A stretch of 64,000 nucleotides of DNA from Chthonobacter albigriseus (GTDB lineage: Bacteria; Pseudomonadota; Alphaproteobacteria; Rhizobiales; Pleomorphomonadaceae): the NCBI RefSeq assembly GCF_013839445.1, contig NZ_JACDIT010000008.1, positions 62,001-126,000 of the forward strand. Reading direction: 5' to 3'. The position numbers and the translations under genes are program-made. This document shows positions 45,044 to 56,845 of the stretch, one piece after another; position 1 is the first letter of the stretch; each line of letters starts with the position of its first letter. The notes under the pieces are model-generated. The model saw nothing but the letters and a program-made list of their open reading frames with translations. It was not told the origin of the DNA and ran no database searches.

Positions 45044-47404
45044 ATGTTGAAGGAAGTCGAACCCCAGGAACGGCCCAATGATCTGGAGGCAACGACCAAT
45101 GGGTTCAACGTCGCGCTCTATCTGGGTATTCTGCGTCGGCAGATTTGGGTGCTGGCGGGCGGCGGTTTGATCGGTGCGTTGTTGGCGCTCCTTTATCTCT
45201 GGGACGCCCCGCCGCAGTATCGTGCGACGACTCAAGTGTTGCTGGACGGTCAGAAGGCCAGCGCTGTTCAGGATCTGACAACCGGCGCCGCGTTCATGTT
45301 CGAAACCGGCGCCGTCGACAGCCAGGTTGTGTTGATCCAATCCACCAACGTCGCCGCCAAGGTTCTCAATCGTCTACAACTTATGGAAGATCCGGACCGG
45401 CTCCTGGGCAAGCCCGGCCCGATTTCCGGTGCGATCAAGGACATCAAGACGTTCGTCTCCGATCTGCTGTCCTGGAGTTCGGCCGAGCCGGAAGCCAGTC
45501 CGCAGATCAAGGAGTATATCACCCGACGCCAGATCCTCGGCGCCCTCGCCGGTGGTATCGAAGTCCGTCGTCTCGGCCGTACCTATGCGTTGGAGTTGAG
45601 CTTCACGGCGCCCGATCAGATCCTGGCCGCAGAGATCGTGAACGCCTTCGCGGAGGCCTACATCGAAGATCAGTTGGGGTCGAAATACGACGCCACGCGG
45701 CGCGCAACCGATTGGATGCAGTCGCGAATCAACGAATTGAGAGACAAGGCCCTGTCGTCCGACATGGCCGTCCAGCGATTCAAGGCCGAAAGCAACCTGA
45801 CGTCGACCGACGGTCGTTTGCTGGCCGACCAGGAGCTTTCGCAGGTCACGAGCCAACTTGTTCTGGCTCGTGCCGACAAGAGTTCCGCCGACGCCCGCTA
45901 CAAGCAAATCCAAGATCTCATCGCGAGTGGCGACCCGGATTCTTCCATCGCGGAGAGCCTGAACAACTCCGTCATCAGTGAATTGCGGGGGCGCTATCTC
46001 CGCGCCTCCAAGATGGAGGCCGACTTCTCCGCCCGCTACGGGCCGAACCACATCCAGGCGCGCAACCTGCGCGACGAGATGGGTAACTACAAGCGCCTGA
46101 TGCTGCTGGAGCTGGAGCGTGTCGCGCAGACGCTGAAGAGCGAGGCGGAGATCGCCGCCAAGCGTGTTGAATCGCTGGAGAACGGGCTGAGCGGACTGTC
46201 GACGCGCAACATCGCAGACAACGAGCAGATGGTTAACCTTCGCGAACTCGAGCGCGAGGCTGCCGCCTACGACAGCCTCTACCAGGAGTTTCTCAAGCGC
46301 TACCAGGAAAGCATCCAACGGCAGTCGTTCCCGATCTCGGAAGCTCGCGTGATCACCCCCGCGGAGGTCCCGCTTGCTCCGAATACTCGAAAGAACTCAG
46401 TCTCCGCGGCGCTTCTGCTGGTCGTCGGACTTGCCGGCGGGGCGTGCGTGGCGGCCGCCCGCGAGTACCGGGATCGCGGATTCCGGACCAGCGAACAGAT
46501 CAGCAGCCATCTCGGGATCGAGATGTTCGGCATGGTGCCGAAGACGGCGAACGATCCGAAACCGGAGCGACCCTCGTTGTCTGCGGAAGGCCGGAAGAGA
46601 GGGGCGGGCCAACAGCCCGTCATTCTTGCAAACCGGACGCCGCTGTTCGTGGACGCCGCCGACTTCGGCAAACGTTCTGTTCCGATCCTTCCGCCGGTGT
46701 TGTCTGCCGCCCTCGACGCACCGCATTCACAGTTCGCCGAAACGATGCGGGCGGCCAAGATGGCCATCGATGTGAGCCGTGTCGGCCGGCCATCAAAGGT
46801 GATCGGGATCGCTTCCTTGCTTCCGGGCGAGGGCAAGACCACCATCGCCAAGAACCTCGCTAGCAACATGGCGCATTCGGGCGCTCGTACCATCATCATC
46901 GATGCCGATCTGAGGAATCCGGGCCTCACGCGCAGCGTCACGCCCTTCGCCGATGCCGGACTGGTCGAAGTTCTTCTTGGCGAGCGGAACCACAAAGACC
47001 TCATCTATGTGGAAAAGGCATCCGGACTGCATGTCCTGCCCGGCGCGATGGAGCGACATTACATCCCGCATACCAGCGAAGTCCTGTCGTCCCCAACGAT
47101 GAGCAGCCTTCTTGCCGATCTAGGGCGGGAGTACGAGTACGTTCTGCTTGATCTCCCGCCGATCGGACCTGTCATCGATACGCGCGTTGTATCTCAGATC
47201 ATCGACAGTTTCGTCTTCGTCGTCGAATGGGGAGCGACCTCTCGATCGTCCATCGTTGATGAACTTCGAAAGCAATTCGAAGTTCGCAACAAGATACTTG
47301 GAGTTATACTTAACAAGGTCGATCCGAAGCGACTAAGTCTCTATCAGAGCGCGGGTGACGTCAGCTATTACTCGGCTCGATACAAATCATACCTGAAGAA
47401 TTGA
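45044..47404 (+). CDS. Exopolysaccharide transport protein, Wzz/BY-kinase fusion (ExoP/GumC type)
   Basis: A 786-residue protein that sets EPS chain length and gates export. The N-terminal Wzz domain begins after the first membrane helix (IWVLAGGGLIGALLALLYLW, about 34-53). A long periplasmic coiled-coil stretch (about 225-440) and the second helix (VSAALLLVVGLAGGACVAAA, near 460) follow. The cytoplasmic tyrosine kinase domain has Walker A LLPGEGKTT (about 591-599), A' IIDADLRNPG and Walker B VLLDLPPI. The C-terminal tail has five Tyr in the last 17 residues (YQSAGDVSYYSARYKSYL), the usual autophosphorylation cluster. It is the first gene of the EPS locus. Confidence 0.93.
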   Translation: MLKEVEPQERPNDLEATTNGFNVALYLGILRRQIWVLAGGGLIGALLALLYLWDAPPQYRATTQVLLDGQKASAVQDLTTGAAFMFETGAVDSQVVLIQSTNVAAKVLNRLQLMEDPDRLLGKPGPISGAIKDIKTFVSDLLSWSSAEPEASPQIKEYITRRQILGALAGGIEVRRLGRTYALELSFTAPDQILAAEIVNAFAEAYIEDQLGSKYDATRRATDWMQSRINELRDKALSSDMAVQRFKAESNLTSTDGRLLADQELSQVTSQLVLARADKSSADARYKQIQDLIASGDPDSSIAESLNNSVISELRGRYLRASKMEADFSARYGPNHIQARNLRDEMGNYKRLMLLELERVAQTLKSEAEIAAKRVESLENGLSGLSTRNIADNEQMVNLRELEREAAAYDSLYQEFLKRYQESIQRQSFPISEARVITPAEVPLAPNTRKNSVSAALLLVVGLAGGACVAAAREYRDRGFRTSEQISSHLGIEMFGMVPKTANDPKPERPSLSAEGRKRGAGQQPVILANRTPLFVDAADFGKRSVPILPPVLSAALDAPHSQFAETMRAAKMAIDVSRVGRPSKVIGIASLLPGEGKTTIAKNLASNMAHSGARTIIIDADLRNPGLTRSVTPFADAGLVEVLLGERNHKDLIYVEKASGLHVLPGAMERHYIPHTSEVLSSPTMSSLLADLGREYEYVLLDLPPIGPVIDTRVVSQIIDSFVFVVEWGATSRSSIVDELRKQFEVRNKILGVILNKVDPKRLSLYQSAGDVSYYSARYKSYLKN

Positions 47405-47427: not shown

Positions 47428-48246
47428 ATGACGGCCATTGCTACTCATCGCCAGGAAAAGACGGCCGGCGTGAACACAGCGGCGCTGGTCCTGCTGATCG
47501 GTCTGTTCGCCAATGCTCATATCGTCGCGAGTTATGGCCTGCTTCTGAAGGGCGACTTCGTCGCGTTTGCAACAAAAACCTTCGGCATCAACGTCGTCGC
47601 ATTGTTGGCCATGTATCGGGCCATCCAGCTCGTTCCGCAAGACGAGCCGCTTTTTGCAGACCGCTGGCGGGTCGGCCTGATCGGCGTCTGCGCAATCTTG
47701 ATGTTGGTGCCGTTGACGGTCGCGTCCTGGCTAGCCGTCACGCTTGTCGGGTTGTACCTCACCATCGGTCGGCGCCAGTCGGGCACCGGCTGGGCTCTCG
47801 GCAGCATCCTGCTCGGGCTCGCCTTCAGCGGGCAATGGGCCCGCTACATCGCCTCCATCTTCCGACCCTACATCCTTTCGGCCGACGCCTTCGTCATCGG
47901 CGTCTTCGCCGGAACAGGGAGCCAAGGAAACCTGGTCTATTCCACGGACGGATCCACGGTCTTGCAGGTTCTGGAAGCCTGCTCTTCGTTTTCCAATCTC
48001 TCCTGGGCCATCCTGGCGTGCGTGACCGTAGCCAGTTTCTTTCCCGAAAGCGGCAAGTATCGCCTTGTTTCAGCAATGCTGCTGTCTTGCGTCGTCGTCG
48101 TCCTGATCAATACCATTCGGATCGGCATCATAGCGCTCGATCCCAATCTTTACGACTTGGCGCATGGCGAAGTCGGCACGACGATTGCCGGGGTGACAGG
48201 CTCCATCGCCGCCTTGCTGGTTCCCTACATGGTGCTCAGGCGATGA
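47428..48246 (+). CDS. Exosortase/archaeosortase-family membrane protein
   Basis: A 272-residue protein with about eight hydrophobic segments. The three catalytic motifs of exosortases can be placed: Cys185 in LEACSSFSN, Arg231 in NTIRIGI and His246 in AHGEVG. Family members are cysteine transpeptidases that cleave C-terminal sorting tails (such as PEP-CTERM) and attach proteins to the envelope or EPS; many lie in EPS loci. The exosortase-specific SGxR after the Cys is SSFS here, a divergent form. Start ATG 47428 follows the kinase gene by 23 bases. The ATGA stop couples it to the next small gene. No PEP-CTERM-like target was found in the window. Confidence 0.75.
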   Translation: MTAIATHRQEKTAGVNTAALVLLIGLFANAHIVASYGLLLKGDFVAFATKTFGINVVALLAMYRAIQLVPQDEPLFADRWRVGLIGVCAILMLVPLTVASWLAVTLVGLYLTIGRRQSGTGWALGSILLGLAFSGQWARYIASIFRPYILSADAFVIGVFAGTGSQGNLVYSTDGSTVLQVLEACSSFSNLSWAILACVTVASFFPESGKYRLVSAMLLSCVVVVLINTIRIGIIALDPNLYDLAHGEVGTTIAGVTGSIAALLVPYMVLRR

Positions 48247-48710
48247 CCCGGAGAGGACTCATCGCACTCACTCTGTTCGCCGTCGGCGGGGCAATCCTCA
48301 AAGCCGCGATGCCCGAACGCTCCGTTCAACTCGATCCTGGTCGGCTTGAAGAGGTGCTCGCCGGCGCCCTCATCGAACAGGGTTTCGTAACCGTCCGAAA
48401 CGCTGATGGCATCATCGGGGCCGCATCAAAGTCCTGCATGCTTTGGGTGCGATCTTCCCGGCTCGACAGTGATGATTCCGTATTTATCCTACAGTACGGG
48501 ATGAACGGTCATCATATGTATGTATTCATGAATACTAGTACCGTTGATCGCCCTGTTGTTTCGATCTTGGCGCGGAACGTCATCGAGCGTTTCACATCCT
48601 TATGGACCGGAGAGCGGTTCATGTTGCCTCTCTACTCTTTGATAGTCGCAGACCAGTGTTCAGAGTTGCCTCGCCTCCCGGCTTCCTTGGCCGTCGCTGA
48701 AGGGAACTGA
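48243..48710 (+). CDS. Small membrane-anchored protein of unknown function, partner of the exosortase-like gene
   Basis: A 155-residue protein not recognised. It begins with a signal-anchor (RRGLIALTLFAVGGAILKAA), followed by a soluble domain with two Cys (KSCMLWVR and DQCSELPRL). Its ATG overlaps the exosortase-like stop (ATGA), so the two proteins are made together. The position recalls the small EpsI-type proteins that accompany some exosortases, but it is shorter and no sequence match could be claimed. It uses more A/T-rich codons than neighbours. Confidence 0.7.
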   Translation: MTRRGLIALTLFAVGGAILKAAMPERSVQLDPGRLEEVLAGALIEQGFVTVRNADGIIGAASKSCMLWVRSSRLDSDDSVFILQYGMNGHHMYVFMNTSTVDRPVVSILARNVIERFTSLWTGERFMLPLYSLIVADQCSELPRLPASLAVAEGN

Positions 48711-48764: not shown

Positions 48765-49622
48765 ATGACTGGAAGCTTAGGTGATCATGGTCTTCCATTG
48801 CCGATCCACCAGATCGACGCCCGAACTGATGATGGCACCTTCGCTCCGCGGAACATTGACATACTCGGCGTGCCGATCAGCCTTGTGACTCCTGAGCGGG
48901 CTCAGTCGATCGTGTTGTCCTGGGCAGCCGAAAGGCTGCTGCGTGTCGTCTTCGTCAGGGATGTTCACGGGCTCATGCGCGCGGTCGATGATCCCGAACT
49001 GCTGGGGCTCCATAGGAGAGCGCACATGGTCGTGCCCGATGGCATGCCGCTGACCTGGGTCGGGCGGCTGCGGGGCCACGGGCGGGAAATCGGGCGCACC
49101 GCGGGCCCGGATCTCGTGGACCGCGTATGCGAGGCGACCTCGACCACGACCATGCGCCACTTCTTCTATGGCGGTAAGCCCGGAGTCGCCGAAATGATGG
49201 CGCAGGAGCTCAGCCGACGGTACCCGGGCCTCAAGGTCGCGGGATGCTTCACGCCCCCGATTCGGGACGTTCCGTTGAACGACGCGCCGTCGGACGAGGA
49301 GCTGCAGGAGTTCGAGCTCATCCGAAAATCCGAAGCCCATTTCGTGTGGGTCGGCCTTTCGAGCCCCAAGCAGGAGCGCTGGATGATGCGGGCCGCCCCA
49401 CACCTTGGCAGCGGTGTCCTTTTCGGCGTCGGTGCCGCGTTCGACTTCCACGCCGGCTCCATCAAGCGGGCCCCGGTGTGGATGCGCGAGAGCGGGCTCG
49501 AATGGCTCCATCGCCTTTCTTCCGAACCGGGACGGCTTTGGAGGCGCTACCTGTTCTATGCACCGCGCTTCGTCCTGGCCGTTGCGCTGGAGCAGGTTGG
49601 TATCAAGCGAGCAGGCCAATGA
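48765..49622 (+). CDS. WecB/TagA/CpsF-family glycosyltransferase (GT26)
   Basis: A 285-residue GT26 enzyme that adds a sugar (often N-acetylmannosamine uronic acid, glucuronic acid or similar) to a lipid-linked intermediate. Signatures: VPDGMPLTWVGRLRG (about residues 88-102), GPDLVDRV, YGGKPGVAEM, and VGLSSPKQERWM (about 198-209). The catalytic Asp is expected in the PDGMP motif. It lies between the exosortase pair and the GT2 gene in the EPS operon, with the GGTGTGGTGCG context upstream giving only a weak ribosome site. Confidence 0.92.
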   Translation: MTGSLGDHGLPLPIHQIDARTDDGTFAPRNIDILGVPISLVTPERAQSIVLSWAAERLLRVVFVRDVHGLMRAVDDPELLGLHRRAHMVVPDGMPLTWVGRLRGHGREIGRTAGPDLVDRVCEATSTTTMRHFFYGGKPGVAEMMAQELSRRYPGLKVAGCFTPPIRDVPLNDAPSDEELQEFELIRKSEAHFVWVGLSSPKQERWMMRAAPHLGSGVLFGVGAAFDFHAGSIKRAPVWMRESGLEWLHRLSSEPGRLWRRYLFYAPRFVLAVALEQVGIKRAGQ

Positions 49623-49791: not shown

Positions 49792-50649
49792 ATGACATCC
49801 GTCGCCGTCTGCATCGCATGCCACAACCGAAAGGACCGGACGCTCGCCTGCCTTGGCCGACTTCTGGCGTCGACGACGGCCCCGGAAATAACACTGCGTG
49901 TCCATGTACTCGACGACGCGAGCAGCGACGGTTCGGCCGAGGCGATCCGTCAAGCCTTCCCGGATGTCCTCGTCCATGCCGGCGACGGCACTCTGTTCTG
50001 GGCCGGAGGCATGCGTGTGGCCTATGGGGCCGCTCTGCGGGAAAAACACGACTTCTACCTTTGGCTGAACGACGACGTGGAGTTGTTTCCCGATGCCCTC
50101 CAGCGCGCGCTGGACACCTATACGAGGCTGAAGGGCTCGCACGGCGGCGAACACATCGTCGTCGGCGCCATGCGCGCACCCGACTCGCTGCGAACGACAT
50201 ACTCCGGCTACCGCCGGGCTTCCCCGATCTTCACCTGGAAGTTCCAGATGGTCGAACCGAACCTGAACGAGGCAACGGAATGCGCGACGGTGAACGGAAA
50301 CTTCCTTCTGATTCCGTCCGCGGTCGCCGACGTCGCCGGCAATATCCCCGAAGCCTTCACGCATACTCTCGGCGACTTCGATTTCGGCCTGCGAGCTCGC
50401 AAGGCGGGTGTTCGCAGTTGGGTGATGCCCGGCTATGCCGGTGTCTGCGAAGCCAACACCACCGGCCGAAGCAACTTCAAGGCGCCCGGCCTTCGGTTCA
50501 GGGAGCGGCTTGCCAAGATGGAGCATCCCCTGGGCCATCCCTTAAGGCCCAGCCTCGCCTACGCCCGGAATTTCGGCTTGTGGGCCCCTGCGGTCGTTCT
50601 CGCGCCCTACGTCGGGTTGCTGCGCGCCACGTTTTCCCGACGGCGATAA
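49792..50649 (+). CDS. Family 2 glycosyltransferase (rhamnosyltransferase-like)
   Basis: A 285-residue GT-A transferase. SVAVCIACHNRKDRTLACLG opens the fold; DDASSDGS (about residues 41-48) is the nucleotide-binding strand, and NDDVE near residue 93 is the metal motif. GDFDFGLRARKAG near residue 195 is the acceptor/base region. The FWAGGM motif (about 69-74) is common in the rhamnosyl- and galactofuranosyltransferase branch. A gap of 169 bases from the GT26 gene contains no other gene. Confidence 0.92.
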   Translation: MTSVAVCIACHNRKDRTLACLGRLLASTTAPEITLRVHVLDDASSDGSAEAIRQAFPDVLVHAGDGTLFWAGGMRVAYGAALREKHDFYLWLNDDVELFPDALQRALDTYTRLKGSHGGEHIVVGAMRAPDSLRTTYSGYRRASPIFTWKFQMVEPNLNEATECATVNGNFLLIPSAVADVAGNIPEAFTHTLGDFDFGLRARKAGVRSWVMPGYAGVCEANTTGRSNFKAPGLRFRERLAKMEHPLGHPLRPSLAYARNFGLWAPAVVLAPYVGLLRATFSRRR

Positions 50650-51063
50650 GTCTGACGGAACCGCCTCGCGTTCGATGCCGCACGAGGCTCAGGCCATGAT
50701 CGGACAGCAAGGCGGTTCCATCCGACCGGATCGAATCAAGGAGAGGCCTATCTTGACCGCGGAGTCATCGTTCCGAACGACCGGAAGCGGCACGCCGCAG
50801 CGCCCGTCGGGGGCATCGGGCCGTTCGGACCCGACGATCAGCATCGTGATCGATCCCCCGTCGGCGTGTCCGGCGAGGGACGCCCGATTCCAGATCGCCG
50901 GAGCGTGTCCAGCCGCCGCGGACCGGTTGGTCGCCGGATCTCGGGACAGTCGATCGGCGCGCCACACCTTCGTCCGGCCCCACCATGTTCCGACGCGACT
51001 GGAGGCCGCCATCGGGCGCGGCAGATCGGCTGGCGCACCACTCGAACCCACCGAGTGCCACCG
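50650..51063. other. Gap between GT2 and GT4 genes, with an inverted repeat
   Basis: A 414-base gap. GGAACCGCCT (50657-50666) pairs with AGGCGGTTCC (50710-50719) across a 43-base loop, a possible hairpin directly after the GT2 stop, without a T-run. The rest is filled by an uncertain small ORF, listed separately. Confidence 0.45.
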
Positions 51064-51067
51064 ATGA
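50675..51067 (+). CDS. Uncertain small ORF before the GT4 gene
   Basis: A 130-codon frame whose stop overlaps the following GT4 start as ATGA, the arrangement seen at real gene joins in this window. A better start may be ATG 50696 with GAGG 8 bases upstream (123 residues). The product is Arg/Pro/Ser-rich, has no membrane segment or known motif and uses rarer codons (AGG, CGA, GGA), so it may be an accidental frame or a decayed gene. Confidence 0.3.
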   Translation: MPHEAQAMIGQQGGSIRPDRIKERPILTAESSFRTTGSGTPQRPSGASGRSDPTISIVIDPPSACPARDARFQIAGACPAAADRLVAGSRDSRSARHTFVRPHHVPTRLEAAIGRGRSAGAPLEPTECHR

Positions 51068-52233
51068 AGATCACATTGGCCGGGCCGTTCGACACCGCTG
51101 CCTTCTCGGCCCTTTCCGGCCTGGATCTCGAGGGTTACCCCGCCGGCGCAGCGGGCGGCGTCGTGGTTCCCCTGCTGGCGCATCAACTGCTGGAGCGGGG
51201 CCACACCGTCAGCGTCGTCTCGTTGGATGCGACCATCGACACGGTTTCGAGGGTTGCCAGGGACCGGTTCGCTTTGACCTACGTGCCGCTTCGCGGCGCG
51301 CCGAGATACCGCGCCCGGGTGCGGGCGATGGACTTGTTCTCCAAGGAAATCAGAGCGCTGGAGGCGGAGATTCGAGCCGTCTCTTCGGACCTGGTCCACG
51401 CCCACTGGACCTACGAGTACGCCGAGGCGGCCGTTCGCAGCGGTATTCCGCACGTCGTGACCATGCATGACGTAGGCTGGGACAACCTCTGGCTATATCG
51501 GGACGCGTATCGACTGATGCGGTTGATCATGATGCTGCGGGTAATGCCGCGCATCCAACGGCTGACTGTCGTTTCCCCGATGATGAAGCGTCTGCCACGG
51601 CACTACGGATACTTCGGCCCCGTCGACGTGGTCTCCAACGGTGTCTCGGTTCCGACGGCCGAACCACAGGCCGACCGGGACCTTTCGAAACGCTTCAACC
51701 TCGTCACCGTGGGAGACGCGACCCGGCGCAAGAACGTCCGCGCCAGCGTGCTGGCCTTTCGGGAGGTGAAGTGCCGGCTGCCGCATGCCGAACTCCACCT
51801 GTTCGGGCCCGGCCTCGAAACCTCGTTCGCCCACGGCGAACCGGGGGTGGTCGGACATGGACCGGCCGCCCATGAGACTTTGATGTCGTTTCTGTCCGAT
51901 CACGCCGACGTGCTGGTGCACCCCTCGTTGCAGGAGACGTTCGGCGTGATCATCGCAGAGGCGAAGGCGCGCGGTGTCCCCGCGATCGGAGGGGTGAATT
52001 CCGGCGCCGTGTCCCACGTCCTCGGGGAGGCGGGGCTGGCCGTCGACGTGAGGAACCCGGACGCCATCGCCAACGCGGTCCTTCATCTCCAGTCCGATCT
52101 AACCGCCTATCAACGGCTCCGCGAGGCGTCGCGGCGCGACATCGAACAGCGGTTCGATGTCGAGCGTACCTCGTCGGTCTACATGGACGTCTACACGACG
52201 ATACGGCCTCAAACCGACACGGCCGGCCCTTAG
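51064..52233 (+). CDS. Family 4 glycosyltransferase
   Basis: A 389-residue GT-B transferase. The N-terminal acceptor domain has GGVVVPLLAHQLLERGHTVSVVS; the DLVHAHWTYEYA and HDVGWDNLW segments follow. The C-terminal donor domain shows VTVGDATRRKNV (residues near 220), HPSLQETFGVIIAEAKARGVPAIGG (about 300-325), which holds the E-x7-E motif. It probably adds one sugar in the EPS repeat unit. The start at ATG 51064 overlaps the stop of the uncertain upstream ORF; a longer frame upstream has no family homology. Confidence 0.9.
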   Translation: MKITLAGPFDTAAFSALSGLDLEGYPAGAAGGVVVPLLAHQLLERGHTVSVVSLDATIDTVSRVARDRFALTYVPLRGAPRYRARVRAMDLFSKEIRALEAEIRAVSSDLVHAHWTYEYAEAAVRSGIPHVVTMHDVGWDNLWLYRDAYRLMRLIMMLRVMPRIQRLTVVSPMMKRLPRHYGYFGPVDVVSNGVSVPTAEPQADRDLSKRFNLVTVGDATRRKNVRASVLAFREVKCRLPHAELHLFGPGLETSFAHGEPGVVGHGPAAHETLMSFLSDHADVLVHPSLQETFGVIIAEAKARGVPAIGGVNSGAVSHVLGEAGLAVDVRNPDAIANAVLHLQSDLTAYQRLREASRRDIEQRFDVERTSSVYMDVYTTIRPQTDTAGP

Positions 52234-52252
52234 GCCGCCCAGGAGCTGTTGC

Positions 52253-53632
52253 ATGCAATCGCGCCGGATCCCCTACATTCCAGCGGATCTGTTCGGCCCT
52301 GCCAGTGCCGAACGGTGGATCCACTTGGCGATTTCCGTGGCGCTCCTTTCCGCCTTCTACCGCGAGGTGGTGGGTCACTATTCACTTGCCATGCTCGGCA
52401 ACTACAACCTGACGGTCAGCGAGATATCGCTGCTCTTCAACCTGATCGCGCTGTGGGTCAATCTTCTTCACAAGCGCCCGTCTATGAATATTGTTACCGG
52501 CGCCGCCTTGGTTCTCCCGGCGATACTTGTCTTCGGAGTTCTCCGTGGCTTTGGAGATTTCTTCGCTTCGATCATTTCTCTCAGGGCGCACGGGTCGACG
52601 ATCTGCATCCTGCTTCTCGCACCCTTCATTCCAATGCGAGACGATTTCAACGCCACAGTGAGACTGGCTTTCATTCGTGCAGGACTTGGGCTGGTCGTAC
52701 TCACACTCCTCCGCGCAGTTTTCGGTCCCGGTTTCCTGATGCAGCATGAGGTTTTTGACCCTCTCGACGTCAACGAAGGTGGGCGTGCTCTATCTTCCAG
52801 TGGAGCTTTCATCGTTGGAATAGCGCTTCTATACAGTATTGACCATATTCTTTCAAACTTTCAAAAAAATATTCAACCAATCCGTCTCCAGTTTACAGCC
52901 GTCATTGCCTTCTCTTTTCTATTTACACTGATCCAGGTCAAGCAAGGCACTGCTACCTTTGCTGCAGCTTCAGGCCTGATTTTCCTGGTTTTATGCGGGA
53001 ACGGTCGCTTCAGAGACCTTCGTGGCGCTACCACGCTGTTCCTTTCGTTCCTGATGTTGTTCTGCATCTTCTTCTACTCGGTTGAGATCGGGGAGCAGAT
53101 TGAACGCTTAGCAGCGGAAACGCTGCCGAATTCACTTTCGGACTGGCTCAGCCGGCGATCGAGGACAATCGAGACACGACAACTCGTATGGGAAGGTCTT
53201 CTCATGGATTTCCACTCGAACTGGACTTCCTTCCAGATGTTCTTCGGGCTCCCAGCAGGCCAGAAGCCATTCATATTCATGAGTAATACCCAGGACCTGT
53301 GGGAACATTCTATGCATAGCATGTACTACGGCCTGCTTGCCTTGAGCGGGATTGTCGGGTTGAGCGCATACATGGTCCTTCTCGCGCTCTGCTTCCTGAC
53401 CAATATCCGCGCAGCCGTTCACGGCCTGGTCGACACTCGCGTTCTTTCATCCAGTCTTGCGATCGCCTTTACCGTCACCTGTGCCGTGTTCGGATACGGC
53501 TATGATATCCGCGGCGAAGCGATCTGGGTTCTGGCTTTGGCGGTTACCGCCTCTCGCCTCCGTCTGAAAATTCGCCCGACGAGTATTCCTGGCTCTCAGT
53601 CGACCCAGAACTGGCAAACGACCAATGTGTAG
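52253..53632 (+). CDS. Multi-spanning membrane protein, Wzy/O-antigen ligase-like polymerase candidate
   Basis: A 459-residue protein with about ten hydrophobic segments and a long extracytoplasmic loop in the second half (around residues 280-370, with RSRTIETRQLVWEGLLMD and WEHSMHSMYYGLLALSG). That layout, and its position in an EPS operon, fit a Wzy-type polymerase or WaaL-like ligase; the family is too divergent to be sure. The start was set at ATG 52253 with AGGAG 7 bases upstream. Codon use is markedly more A/T-rich than neighbours, typical of Wzy genes acquired by transfer. Its stop overlaps the next start by 8 bases. Confidence 0.75.
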   Translation: MQSRRIPYIPADLFGPASAERWIHLAISVALLSAFYREVVGHYSLAMLGNYNLTVSEISLLFNLIALWVNLLHKRPSMNIVTGAALVLPAILVFGVLRGFGDFFASIISLRAHGSTICILLLAPFIPMRDDFNATVRLAFIRAGLGLVVLTLLRAVFGPGFLMQHEVFDPLDVNEGGRALSSSGAFIVGIALLYSIDHILSNFQKNIQPIRLQFTAVIAFSFLFTLIQVKQGTATFAAASGLIFLVLCGNGRFRDLRGATTLFLSFLMLFCIFFYSVEIGEQIERLAAETLPNSLSDWLSRRSRTIETRQLVWEGLLMDFHSNWTSFQMFFGLPAGQKPFIFMSNTQDLWEHSMHSMYYGLLALSGIVGLSAYMVLLALCFLTNIRAAVHGLVDTRVLSSSLAIAFTVTCAVFGYGYDIRGEAIWVLALAVTASRLRLKIRPTSIPGSQSTQNWQTTNV

Positions 53633-55688
53633 TCCGACCAGAGCGCGCTCTCACCATGGGACCGTTTTCCGGCGCCTACCGGCCCCGATTTCGTCGCTCA
53701 TCGTTGCGGCGATTTTCCTCTTCTCGGCGTGTCCCGACGTGGGCGCCGTTTCCGCCCTTTCGGTGCTGGACAAGAGCCAGGGCGTAACAGCCACCGTCGA
53801 GAATGGCCAGCGTGTGTTTCATCTGCCTGCGAAGACATTCGAATTGCGCTCTCCCTTGGAACTCGGCGCGCTCGCACGGGGGGGCGTGGTGCTTCGGGGA
53901 GACGTGAACGGAAAGACGCGGATCCATGGGTCCCGGTCCTATCGGGCGCGCCGGGTCGGGCCGGACGAAGCTCTCCCGAACGGGATGCGTCGCGACAAGA
54001 GCTTGTTCGTCATCGAGGCCGACAGCCTCATCCGCAAGCTTTGGATCGACGGCGGCGAGAGGAAGCCGGGTTGCCTGGCCGGCTCGCTTGTCGCGGTGTA
54101 CCAGGGCGACCGCCGATTGACGTGCGCGTCCTGGCCGAAGTCCGGATACGCCAGGGCTGCAGTGCTGCGCTCGGACGATCCGGCCAGGCTCGTATTCGAC
54201 GTTCCTCCCGAGAAGGCGGCCGATTGGGCCGGGGCCGGGTTGTCGGTCAGCGGCTATTTCGGCTTCGACTGGCTGCATGAGGCGGCCGACGTCAAAACGC
54301 TGAACGCCACGCTGGGCCAGTTGGCCCTCGCGCCGCTGAGACAGGCGTTCAAGCCCATGCCCGGGCTCCGCTACGCTGTTCACGGCGCGCCGGCGGATCT
54401 GACGGAGCCGGGGGAATACGTCTCAGATCCGACGACAGGCCGGATCTTCATACGGCCGCTGGACGATGCCGAGGCGCCAGAATTCCAGATCCCGGTCGCA
54501 CGCTCGCTCATCAGCATCGTCGGCGGCGGTCGCGTGGTCCTGGAGAACATCCATTTCGCCTATTCCATCGGAAACGGGCTGGACTTGCGAGACGTGGAAG
54601 GCGCGGTGATCCGCGACGGCAGCGTCATGCATGTGGGCGATACCGGCATTCGCGTCCGCGGCGGTCATGCGGTCGTGGTCGAACGGATGCGGGTTTTTGA
54701 TATCGGCGGTACCGGCATCGACCTGGCGGGCGGAGATCGCCAGACGCTTGCCCCGGGCGGGCATGCGGTCCGGCAGTCCGTGATCACGAACACGTCGGTG
54801 CGCAAGCGCACCTATCGTCCGGCCGTGCGGCTCGATGGTGTCGGCAACAGTGTGGAGGACACCTTCATCGCGGACCTGCCGCACAACGCGATCACATTCG
54901 CCGGCAACGACCATCGGATCGCCTTCAACGAGATCACTCGCGTCGTCCAGGAGACGAGCGATGCGGGCGCCATCTATGCCGGACGGGATTGGACCTTTCG
55001 GGGGAACGTGATCGAAGGAAACTACCTGCACGACATCGTCCCCCTGGAGGAGCCCAGCCTGCTTGCGACTCCCGACGAGCCGAAAGCCATGGAGGTGCGT
55101 GGGATCTACCTGGACGACCTGCTGAGCGGGACCAGCGTGCTGCACAACATCCTCATCAACGTCTGCCAGCCGATCATCGTCGGCGGCGGACGAGACAATC
55201 GCATCGAAGGCAACCTGCTCGCACGGCCGCCGAGAACGTCCGCCTGCCCGGCCGGGGCCATCACCTTCCATTCCTGGGGCCTGGCCGAGAAGCATCTCTA
55301 CCCTCTCGATCCCAACAGCACCTTGCGGAAGGGACTCGCCGCTGTTCCCTACAACCGGCCGCCCTATTCGGACCGGTATCCAGGTTTGACCGATATCCTG
55401 AACGGCCATCCCGGCGAGCCCATCAACAACGGCTTCTCCGGAAATGTCGCTATCGGCGGACCGCTGTTCCACTTCAAGGGCGTGGCCCAGACCTATGCGC
55501 GGCTGGGGCAGAACCACGAGGGCTTGGAAGATGCGGATCTCGAAAGGGAGGATCTGCCCGCCGTCAACGCCTGGATCGATCGGACATGGCCAGACGATGT
55601 GTCGATGGATACCCGTAACGCCCTGAGGAACACGACGGATCGACTTTCCCGTAACGCAAGCGTGTGGACCGCCATCGCGCGTCGATGA
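53625..55688 (+). CDS. Secreted right-handed beta-helix protein
   Basis: A 687-residue protein. An N-terminal signal (ISSLIVAAIFLFSACPDVGAVSA) indicates export, perhaps as a lipoprotein-like form given the Cys in FSAC. From about residue 290 there are stacked parallel beta-helix repeats (IVGGGRVVLENIHFAYSIGNGLDLRD, ...VIRDGSVMHVGDTGIRVRGGHAV, ...NAITFAGNDHRIAFNEI, DAGAIYAGRDWTFRGNVIEGNYLHDI). This fold is used by polysaccharide lyases, epimerases and hydrolases. No catalytic residues can be assigned. In this operon it probably edits or trims the EPS. Its stop overlaps the next frame (ATGA at 55685). Confidence 0.82.
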   Translation: MCSPTRARSHHGTVFRRLPAPISSLIVAAIFLFSACPDVGAVSALSVLDKSQGVTATVENGQRVFHLPAKTFELRSPLELGALARGGVVLRGDVNGKTRIHGSRSYRARRVGPDEALPNGMRRDKSLFVIEADSLIRKLWIDGGERKPGCLAGSLVAVYQGDRRLTCASWPKSGYARAAVLRSDDPARLVFDVPPEKAADWAGAGLSVSGYFGFDWLHEAADVKTLNATLGQLALAPLRQAFKPMPGLRYAVHGAPADLTEPGEYVSDPTTGRIFIRPLDDAEAPEFQIPVARSLISIVGGGRVVLENIHFAYSIGNGLDLRDVEGAVIRDGSVMHVGDTGIRVRGGHAVVVERMRVFDIGGTGIDLAGGDRQTLAPGGHAVRQSVITNTSVRKRTYRPAVRLDGVGNSVEDTFIADLPHNAITFAGNDHRIAFNEITRVVQETSDAGAIYAGRDWTFRGNVIEGNYLHDIVPLEEPSLLATPDEPKAMEVRGIYLDDLLSGTSVLHNILINVCQPIIVGGGRDNRIEGNLLARPPRTSACPAGAITFHSWGLAEKHLYPLDPNSTLRKGLAAVPYNRPPYSDRYPGLTDILNGHPGEPINNGFSGNVAIGGPLFHFKGVAQTYARLGQNHEGLEDADLEREDLPAVNAWIDRTWPDDVSMDTRNALRNTTDRLSRNASVWTAIARR

Positions 55689-55708
55689 CACTAATGGAGA
55701 TTACCGCG

Positions 55709-56845
55709 ATGCGTTGGAAAGCCGGTTTTTACTATCCGCCTTCATATCACTACCGACAGCCGTTTCATGAGAATGTAAGATCTCTGCTTGCGTCTAGTGA
55801 CGTGGATTATTGCGTTTACTATTCCGAGCCCTTCGGTTCCTACAAAATTAAGAAGGACACTGTGGAGATACCGTGGGGTCGCAAGGTTCCCTTGCTCAGA
55901 CTGGGGAATAAAGGCCCGATGCTCCAAATGGCTTTCGCTGACGTGCTCGCATCGGACCTCGTGATTGTCCAGCAAGAGAACCTTCTACTGCTCAATTACT
56001 TTTGCCAAATGATCAGCCTTGCAGGACGGCAAAAGGTAGCGTTCTTCGGCCATGGGCGGAATTTTCAGTCCAGAGATCCCCATTCACTCGCCGAGCGGTT
56101 CAAGAGTGCTCTTGCCACCCGGGTCGACTGGTGGTTCGCCTATACCGACCAGACCTCGAAGCATCTGCAGTCGATCGGGTATCCGGCGGACCGGATCACG
56201 GTGTTCAACAACGCCGTCGATACGAGCACCCTGCGAAGCCAGGCGGCGGCGGTCACGGCTGAACGGCTGGCAATCAGGCGCGCGGAACTCGGGCTCGTCG
56301 GGTCGAACACCTGCGTCTACGTCGGCGGTATCTATCCCGACAAGCGGGTGCCGTTCCTGGTGGAGTGCCTGGATCTGATCCGCGCGGCGGTCCCGGACTT
56401 CGAGTTCGTCGCCGTGGGCGGCGGCGTGGATCTTCCGCTGCTGGAGCAGGCAGCCAAGGATCGGCCCTGGCTGAAGGTCACCGGGCCGCGGTTCGGCCAG
56501 GACAAGGTGGAGCTGATGGCCCTCGGGAAGCTGTTCCTGATCCCTGGCCTGGTGGGCCTTGCCGTGCTGGACGCAGGGGTGATGGGGCTCCCGGTGGTCA
56601 CGACGGACTATCCCTATCACAGCCCGGAGATCGCCTATCTGGAGGACGGTCGGAGCGGGCTGATCGTGAAGCCCTGGTCCGACGCGAAGGCCTATGCCGA
56701 CGCGGTGATCGGGCTGTTGGGGAGTGACCGTCTTCCGGCGATGTCCGAGGCGTCGCGCGCGATCGCCGCGCGCTACACGATCGAAGCGATGGCCGAGCGG
56801 TTCGCCGAGGGCGTGTTGAAGGCGCTTGCCGCACCGCCGAAATGA
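55709..56845 (+). CDS. Family 4-like glycosyltransferase with a composition switch
   Basis: A 378-residue GT-B-type transferase. The donor domain has VYVGGIYPDKRVPFLVECL (about residues 205-225), VAVGGGVDLPLLE and LIPGLVGLAVLDAGVMGLPVVTTDYP (about 272-298), with the family Glu replaced by Asp (LDAG). The start was set at ATG 55709 because GGAG lies 9 bases upstream; ATG 55685 (overlapping the previous stop) is an alternative. Roughly the first 350-400 bases use many A/T-ending codons, after which the gene is GC-rich like the genome, suggesting a mosaic origin. Last gene of the plus-strand EPS run. Confidence 0.87.
   Translation: MRWKAGFYYPPSYHYRQPFHENVRSLLASSDVDYCVYYSEPFGSYKIKKDTVEIPWGRKVPLLRLGNKGPMLQMAFADVLASDLVIVQQENLLLLNYFCQMISLAGRQKVAFFGHGRNFQSRDPHSLAERFKSALATRVDWWFAYTDQTSKHLQSIGYPADRITVFNNAVDTSTLRSQAAAVTAERLAIRRAELGLVGSNTCVYVGGIYPDKRVPFLVECLDLIRAAVPDFEFVAVGGGVDLPLLEQAAKDRPWLKVTGPRFGQDKVELMALGKLFLIPGLVGLAVLDAGVMGLPVVTTDYPYHSPEIAYLEDGRSGLIVKPWSDAKAYADAVIGLLGSDRLPAMSEASRAIAARYTIEAMAERFAEGVLKALAAPPK

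Follow-up and report, generated by a model that had tools for sequence, protein, structure and literature searches.

An exopolysaccharide (EPS) cluster of Chthonobacter albigriseus contains a gene for an exosortase-like membrane protein. Is this protein an orphan, a factor of EPS assembly, or a sorting enzyme with substrates encoded elsewhere? A preliminary description of the window (the whole analysed stretch of 64,000 nucleotides) had called it an orphan. By the reading favoured here, which is held with high confidence, the gene encodes a CSS-type exosortase that sorts PGP-tagged proteins and lies beside an EPS cluster.

Family assignment and predicted structure

Features of the locus are compiled in Table 1. 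The EPS operon described around the gene is real. TIGR03097, weakly matched by one of its membrane proteins, is the model of the exosortase-A-associated O-glycosylation ligase.

Table 1. Features of the exosortase-like gene and its neighbourhood (window positions).
Feature	Position	Strand	Basis
Wzc-like chain-length determinant / BY-kinase, directly upstream of the enzyme	45044..47404	+	AAA_31, Wzz, TIGR01005
CSS-type exosortase-like integral membrane protein, 272 aa	47428..48246	+	TIGR04178, homologues, AlphaFold2 model
Cys185 codon, putative nucleophile, in C-S-S-F-S-N	47980..47982	+	invariant in 18 aligned homologues
Ser187 codon, at the place of the Gly of EpsH Cys-x-Gly	47986..47988	+	Ser invariant in 18 aligned homologues
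Asn228-Thr-Ile-Arg231 codons (N-x-x-R motif)	48109..48120	+	N228 and R231 invariant
His246-Gly-Glu-Val-Gly250 codons (H-x-x-x-G motif)	48163..48177	+	H246 and G250 invariant
Partner protein, 155 aa, N-terminal membrane helix and alpha/beta body	48243..48710	+	AlphaFold2, alignment, loci
WecG/TagA/CpsF glycosyltransferase	48765..49622	+	PF03808, E 4.5e-57
Family 2 glycosyltransferase	49792..50649	+	PF00535
Family 4 glycosyltransferase	51058..52233	+	PF13439 and PF13692
Wzy/O-ligase-like membrane protein	52157..53632	+	weak TIGR03097 match, E 5.5e-4
Right-handed beta-helix protein of the EPS cluster	53625..55688	+	PF13229, E 9e-11
Family 4 glycosyltransferase	55664..56845	+	PF13692, E 9.5e-19

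In the 272-residue protein, Cys185 lies in EACSSFSN, Arg231 in NTIRIG and His246 in AHGEVG. TIGR04178 (exo_archaeo) was matched in an NCBIfam scan with 26.4 bits (curated cut-off 23) over residues 180-264, so that the match covers all three residues. By this curated signature, the protein is a member of the exosortase/archaeosortase superfamily, and the triad described earlier was confirmed. The named subfamilies XrtD, XrtR and ArtE gave sub-threshold matches only, the EpsH model TIGR02602 was absent among the NCBIfam matches, and a Pfam scan returned no match, PF09721 included. Of the 18 aligned homologues (17 from named genomes and the window protein), 16 matched TIGR04178 at E up to 1.

SSFS after the cysteine, in place of SGxR, had also been read correctly. 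The EpsH family has six perfectly conserved residues in Cys-x-Gly, Asn-x-x-Arg and His-x-x-x-Gly (Haft et al. 2006, PMC1569441). Five of these six are present in the window protein, and the Gly of Cys-x-Gly is replaced by Ser187; lacking Cys-x-Gly, the protein is not a classical EpsH. Cys185, Ser186, Ser187, Asn190, Ser192, Asn228, Arg231, His246 and Gly250 are invariant in the 18 aligned homologues. Relatives were surveyed for the residue at Cys+2 (n = 47, including a few duplicate fetches of one locus). Automatic reading recovered all three motifs in 45 of them, none with Gly at this place; the other two (L036 and L037) showed CSSF by eye. Because Gly was absent throughout these 45 relatives, the change from Cys-x-Gly to Cys-Ser-Ser is regarded as a subfamily trait; it indicates that this Gly is not essential across the superfamily.

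For comparison with classical exosortases of the same order, a profile of the 18 homologues was aligned with hhalign (probability 92%, E 7e-7). Cys and N-x-x-R were in register, from which, together with the E value, CSS-type and classical exosortases are taken to be homologous. These sequence comparisons support a coherent subfamily of exosortase-like proteins that consistently have another residue for the Gly of Cys-x-Gly, in agreement with the variant sorting enzyme suggested before. A scan of the genome contigs with the single protein found no relative, a PDB sequence search with it gave no match, and a description of the tag or of the CSS subfamily was not found in the open-access papers searched.

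The AlphaFold2 model of the enzyme (mean pLDDT 83.9) has nine helices of 15 or more residues; the EpsH criterion is at least eight transmembrane helices. Cys185 and His246 shortly precede helices 187-202 and 248-271, respectively, and Arg231 is close to the end of helix 210-237. In the model, each of the last three helices thus has one of the three residues at or close to one of its ends, in agreement with the proposal for EpsH (PMC1569441); this placement matches the proposed EpsH topology, in which the triad is on the periplasmic side. Lys/Arg at about 210-212 and the C-terminal Arg-Arg would put the opposite helix ends in the cytoplasm by the positive-inside rule. Foldseek searches of the PDB with the enzyme and partner models gave no match at E up to 0.001, and VIA-align gave for both models only rows of Z 8.0 or less, which may be common arrangements; the search results contained no solved exosortase, and this null result says nothing on the fold.

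Partner and tag genes beside the enzyme

The start of the partner gene overlaps the stop codon of the exosortase gene (ATGA). In the AlphaFold2 model (pLDDT 85.4), the partner consists of an N-terminal helix and an alpha/beta body. Cys65 and Cys139 are invariant across the aligned partner proteins and possibly form a disulfide. A relative of the partner adjoins the enzyme in all 18 named loci and, at E below 0.01, in 15 of 21 loci from the order; several more of the latter have a weaker-scoring relative at the expected position. No Pfam or NCBIfam model matched the partner. In Methylobacillus, the gene that directly follows the one for EpsH encodes EpsI (PMC1569441). TIGR02914 (EpsI) had no match in the own genome nor in 17 partner proteins, and hhalign of partner against EpsI gave a probability of 0.8%, with few rows in the EpsI alignment.

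The second neighbour in relatives is a tagged gene. Its product is a small secreted protein whose C-terminus has P-x-P, then a hydrophobic segment and basic residues. Within the clade of the window protein the tag has the consensus [AV]-P-G-P-[IVL]-A-G-x-G-L-P, after which come a hydrophobic segment and a group of Arg/Lys. A gene with such a tag is the immediate upstream neighbour of the enzyme gene in 12 of the 18 named loci (L116, L117, L119, L120, L122-L128 and L132; Devosia, Microvirga, Lutibaculum and others), and tagged genes adjoin it in many order-level and class-level relatives. On a Microvirga ossetica plasmid, two tagged genes upstream of the enzyme were found by profile search. A tblastn search of plasmids with one tag found nothing; single-sequence tblastn is considered too weak for the tag, since the profile detected the two M. 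ossetica genes that it had missed. Curated sorting-domain models gave no match above cut-off for the tag, except for a marginal LPXTG_anchor match in one relative. TIGR02595 (PEP-CTERM) was below cut-off for every tag protein scanned; the motif is Pro-Gly-Pro and not Pro-Glu-Pro.

Several of these loci had further features. The upstream genes of L122, L125, L127, L128 and L132 encode, after the signal peptide and ahead of the tag, another motif (P-[PA]-DR-x-x-x-PGLG[WY]), and from this shared motif the small substrates of these loci may be one orthologous dedicated substrate. In genome G274 (L048, 10207-11128), a divergent exosortase-like gene is followed by a tandem of four genes for small secreted proteins whose tails are nearly identical (PGPVxGVVAGPWGLVAxGxxYGAYRAYKALR). 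A contig assigned to Kaiparowitsia implicata (a cyanobacterial MAG) contains a locus of the Devosia type that closely resembles the one in an alphaproteobacterial MAG (L122/L125), probably as a result of binning contamination.

These loci bear on the suggestion that the protein acts directly on EPS assembly (as polymerase, ligase or flippase helper), with its exosortase likeness a matter of ancestry only. The gene does lie between Wzc and glycosyltransferase genes, EPS genes are found near both own copies of the enzyme as well as near the relatives in G322, Rhizobium smilacinae and Rhizobium sp. WL3, and neither own copy adjoins a tagged gene. In most named relatives, however, the enzyme has a tagged gene beside it, and searches around most Devosia and Microvirga loci detected few or none of the EPS genes of the window type. 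The constant companions of the enzyme are the partner and the tag, not EPS genes. Moreover, all three motif residues are invariant, the own genome retains tagged proteins (see below), and EPS production in Methylobacillus was unaffected by epsH disruption (Haft et al. 2006, PMC1569441). A direct role in EPS assembly is therefore judged improbable, and sorting of tagged proteins is preferred.

On plasmid unnamed2 of Rhizobium sp. WL3 (L157, 5923-7288), enzyme and partner are both annotated as 'hypothetical protein', and the pair is placed inside a glycosyltransferase operon arranged like that of the window.

Tagged proteins in the own genome and co-occurrence with the enzyme

For the own genome, the preliminary description had proposed a search for proteins with a motif, a hydrophobic segment and a basic tail. 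Tag profile searches yielded at least seven PGP-tagged proteins; scoring was confined to the best candidates of each genome, which makes all tag counts lower bounds. The protein is hence not an orphan in the sense claimed, all the more as relatives have a tagged gene directly upstream of the enzyme. The reported absence of PEP-CTERM-like tails holds for the window, where a hydropathy-based tail scan detected unrelated ends only, but not for the genome.

With profile A5, which was built with four of the seven own proteins, six were matched at E below 1e-7 and the seventh at E 0.005. Profile A11, trained only on enzyme-linked tails of named relatives, matched three of the own tagged proteins, none of them linked to an enzyme gene, at E 5.4e-7, 1.4e-6 and 6.9e-5. 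Three of the seven genes are in tandem on contig C18, two are on C15 and two on C1. All seven proteins end within five residues of the A5 match and have a signal-peptide-like N-terminal segment (judged by eye). Their bodies contain 30% Ser+Thr+Asn and about 3% Lys+Arg, compared with 14% and 11%, respectively, in the other proteins of the window. The tandem genes on C18 (L107, 6868-9101) are situated between gatA-like and gatB-like genes, and no EPS genes were noticed nearby.

Enzyme and tag were then compared across genomes. The CSS-type enzyme profile matched 21 of 397 genomes of the order. A5 matched at E below 1e-4 in six of the 397, all enzyme-positive (Fisher p 1e-8; 8e-5 for the three genomes outside A5 training), a significance that is overstated, as is that of the class-level test below, because genomes were treated as independent. 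The same six genomes are those whose enzymes share the clade of the window protein (support 85/83, moderate). At class level, the enzyme was present in 10 of 385 genomes, and A11 matches below 1e-4 were confined to three (the own genome, G490 and G749), all of them enzyme-positive (p 1.3e-5; 5e-4 without the own genome). The co-occurrence is strong but imperfect, because some enzyme-positive genomes (G006, G137, G212 and G166) had no tag match and a few weak tag matches (E about 5e-4, e.g. G060) came from genomes without the enzyme. Among the enzyme-negative genomes, G060, G163, G736, G707 and others had such matches at E 5e-4 to 1e-2, which were considered unproven and left aside. The same-genus genome G001 matched neither enzyme nor tag.

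Several unrelated families process tripartite C-terminal tags (PMC3237569, PMC11980579), and the PGP tags might accordingly be substrates of a rhombosortase or a myxosortase-like protease, the association with CSS-type enzymes being indirect. This is very improbable: independent lineages have a tagged gene immediately next to the CSS-type gene, the tag motif changes along with the enzyme clade, and the GlyGly-CTERM and MYXO-CTERM models were below their cut-offs on the proteins scanned.

Attribution of the tags to the CSS-type family leaves two enzymes to be considered in the own genome, the window copy (contig C19) and a paralogue on C16 that is 32% identical to it (genome search). TIGR04178 was over cut-off for these two proteins only, and no classical exosortase (PF09721) was found in the genome. 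The C16 paralogue and its partner gene (C16:218000-237000; L005, 9793-11146) are divergent from a Wzc-like gene in another EPS cluster. The paralogue alone might handle the PGP tags, the window copy serving an undetected substrate or being lost; the existence of two paralogues, which in the tree are not each other's closest relatives (low support), would allow this. The window copy, however, retains every invariant residue and its partner gene, and it belongs to a clade whose genomes carry the PGP tag, so that this division of labour is rated as unlikely and the window enzyme is retained as a PGP-sorting candidate.

Proposed reaction and relation to known systems

Homology, conserved residues, gene order and tag co-occurrence suggest that the protein works like an exosortase. 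For cleavage, thioester, acceptor, partner role and the assignment of paralogues to tags, we infer the following. The gene product would be a transpeptidase of the exosortase type and represent a distinct 'CSS' subfamily. It would act on secreted proteins that begin with a signal peptide, have a body rich in Ser/Thr/Asn and end in a tag composed of [AV]-P-G-P-x-x-G-x-G-L-P, a membrane-spanning segment and a group of Arg/Lys residues. Once exported by Sec, such a protein would be retained in the inner membrane by its tag, with PGP facing the periplasm. Cys185, helped by His246 and Arg231, would attack near the tag and form a thioester, and the enzyme would hand the protein to an acceptor that is probably connected with the exopolysaccharide from the surrounding genes. 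The acceptor of the exosortase reaction is described as unknown (PMC1569441, PMC12188702). The partner, anchored by one helix and possibly carrying the Cys65-Cys139 disulfide, would act with the enzyme from a position like that of EpsI beside EpsH.

The EpsH/PEP-CTERM system resembles this arrangement in several respects: a multi-helix membrane enzyme with Cys, N-x-x-R and H-x-x-x-G within an EPS locus; several proteins in a genome that have a signal peptide and, at the C-terminus, a motif, a hydrophobic helix and basic residues; substrate bodies rich in Ser/Thr/Asn with few Lys/Arg; and a small protein encoded directly downstream of the enzyme. It differs in that EpsH has Cys-x-Gly, whereas the window enzyme has Cys-Ser-Ser and no PF09721 match, in that the tag here is PGP-x-x-G-x-G-L-P instead of PEP, and in that the downstream protein, unlike EpsI, has two invariant Cys and no detectable EpsI sequence match.

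The archaeosortases (ArtA, ArtE and ArtD models) have the TIGR04178 signature in common with the window enzyme. Judged by E value, ArtE is the nearest of these models (11 of 18 homologues at E up to 1, best 1.5e-6; E 0.18 for the window protein itself). The PGF-CTERM tag of ArtA also opens with Pro-Gly, but the tag here continues with GLP, not PGF, and the CSS-type system is bacterial, Gram-negative and EPS-associated. Cyanoexosortases A and B likewise combine an enzyme, a protein encoded immediately downstream and scattered tagged substrates (PMC12188702 for CrtB); for cyanoexosortase B, the downstream position of this protein is described in PMC12188702. The cyanoexosortase-associated protein in L156 has Cys near both conserved places, like the partner here, whereas the cyanobacterial enzyme read here has the standard C-S-G motif. 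XrtF is an orphan exosortase with target proteins not yet known (PMC12188702) and in this resembles an exosortase-like protein without assigned target; for the CSS subfamily, in contrast, a matching tag was found.

More tentatively, CSS subfamily, two-cysteine partner and PGP-GLP tag may constitute a sorting module that evolved on its own in Hyphomicrobiales and other Alphaproteobacteria, and not a drifted EpsH. The invariant Ser for Gly and the added invariant Asn190 and Ser192 would then mark an altered active site with a different acceptor or partner-dependent chemistry; this extension is possible, though on balance doubtful.

The apparent orphan is thereby turned into a defined, testable enzyme-tag pair, with a searchable tag, about seven candidate substrates in one genome and a conserved partner without a family name. 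The linked substrates of Devosia and Microvirga (about 110 residues or fewer) would suit an assay of the exosortase reaction.
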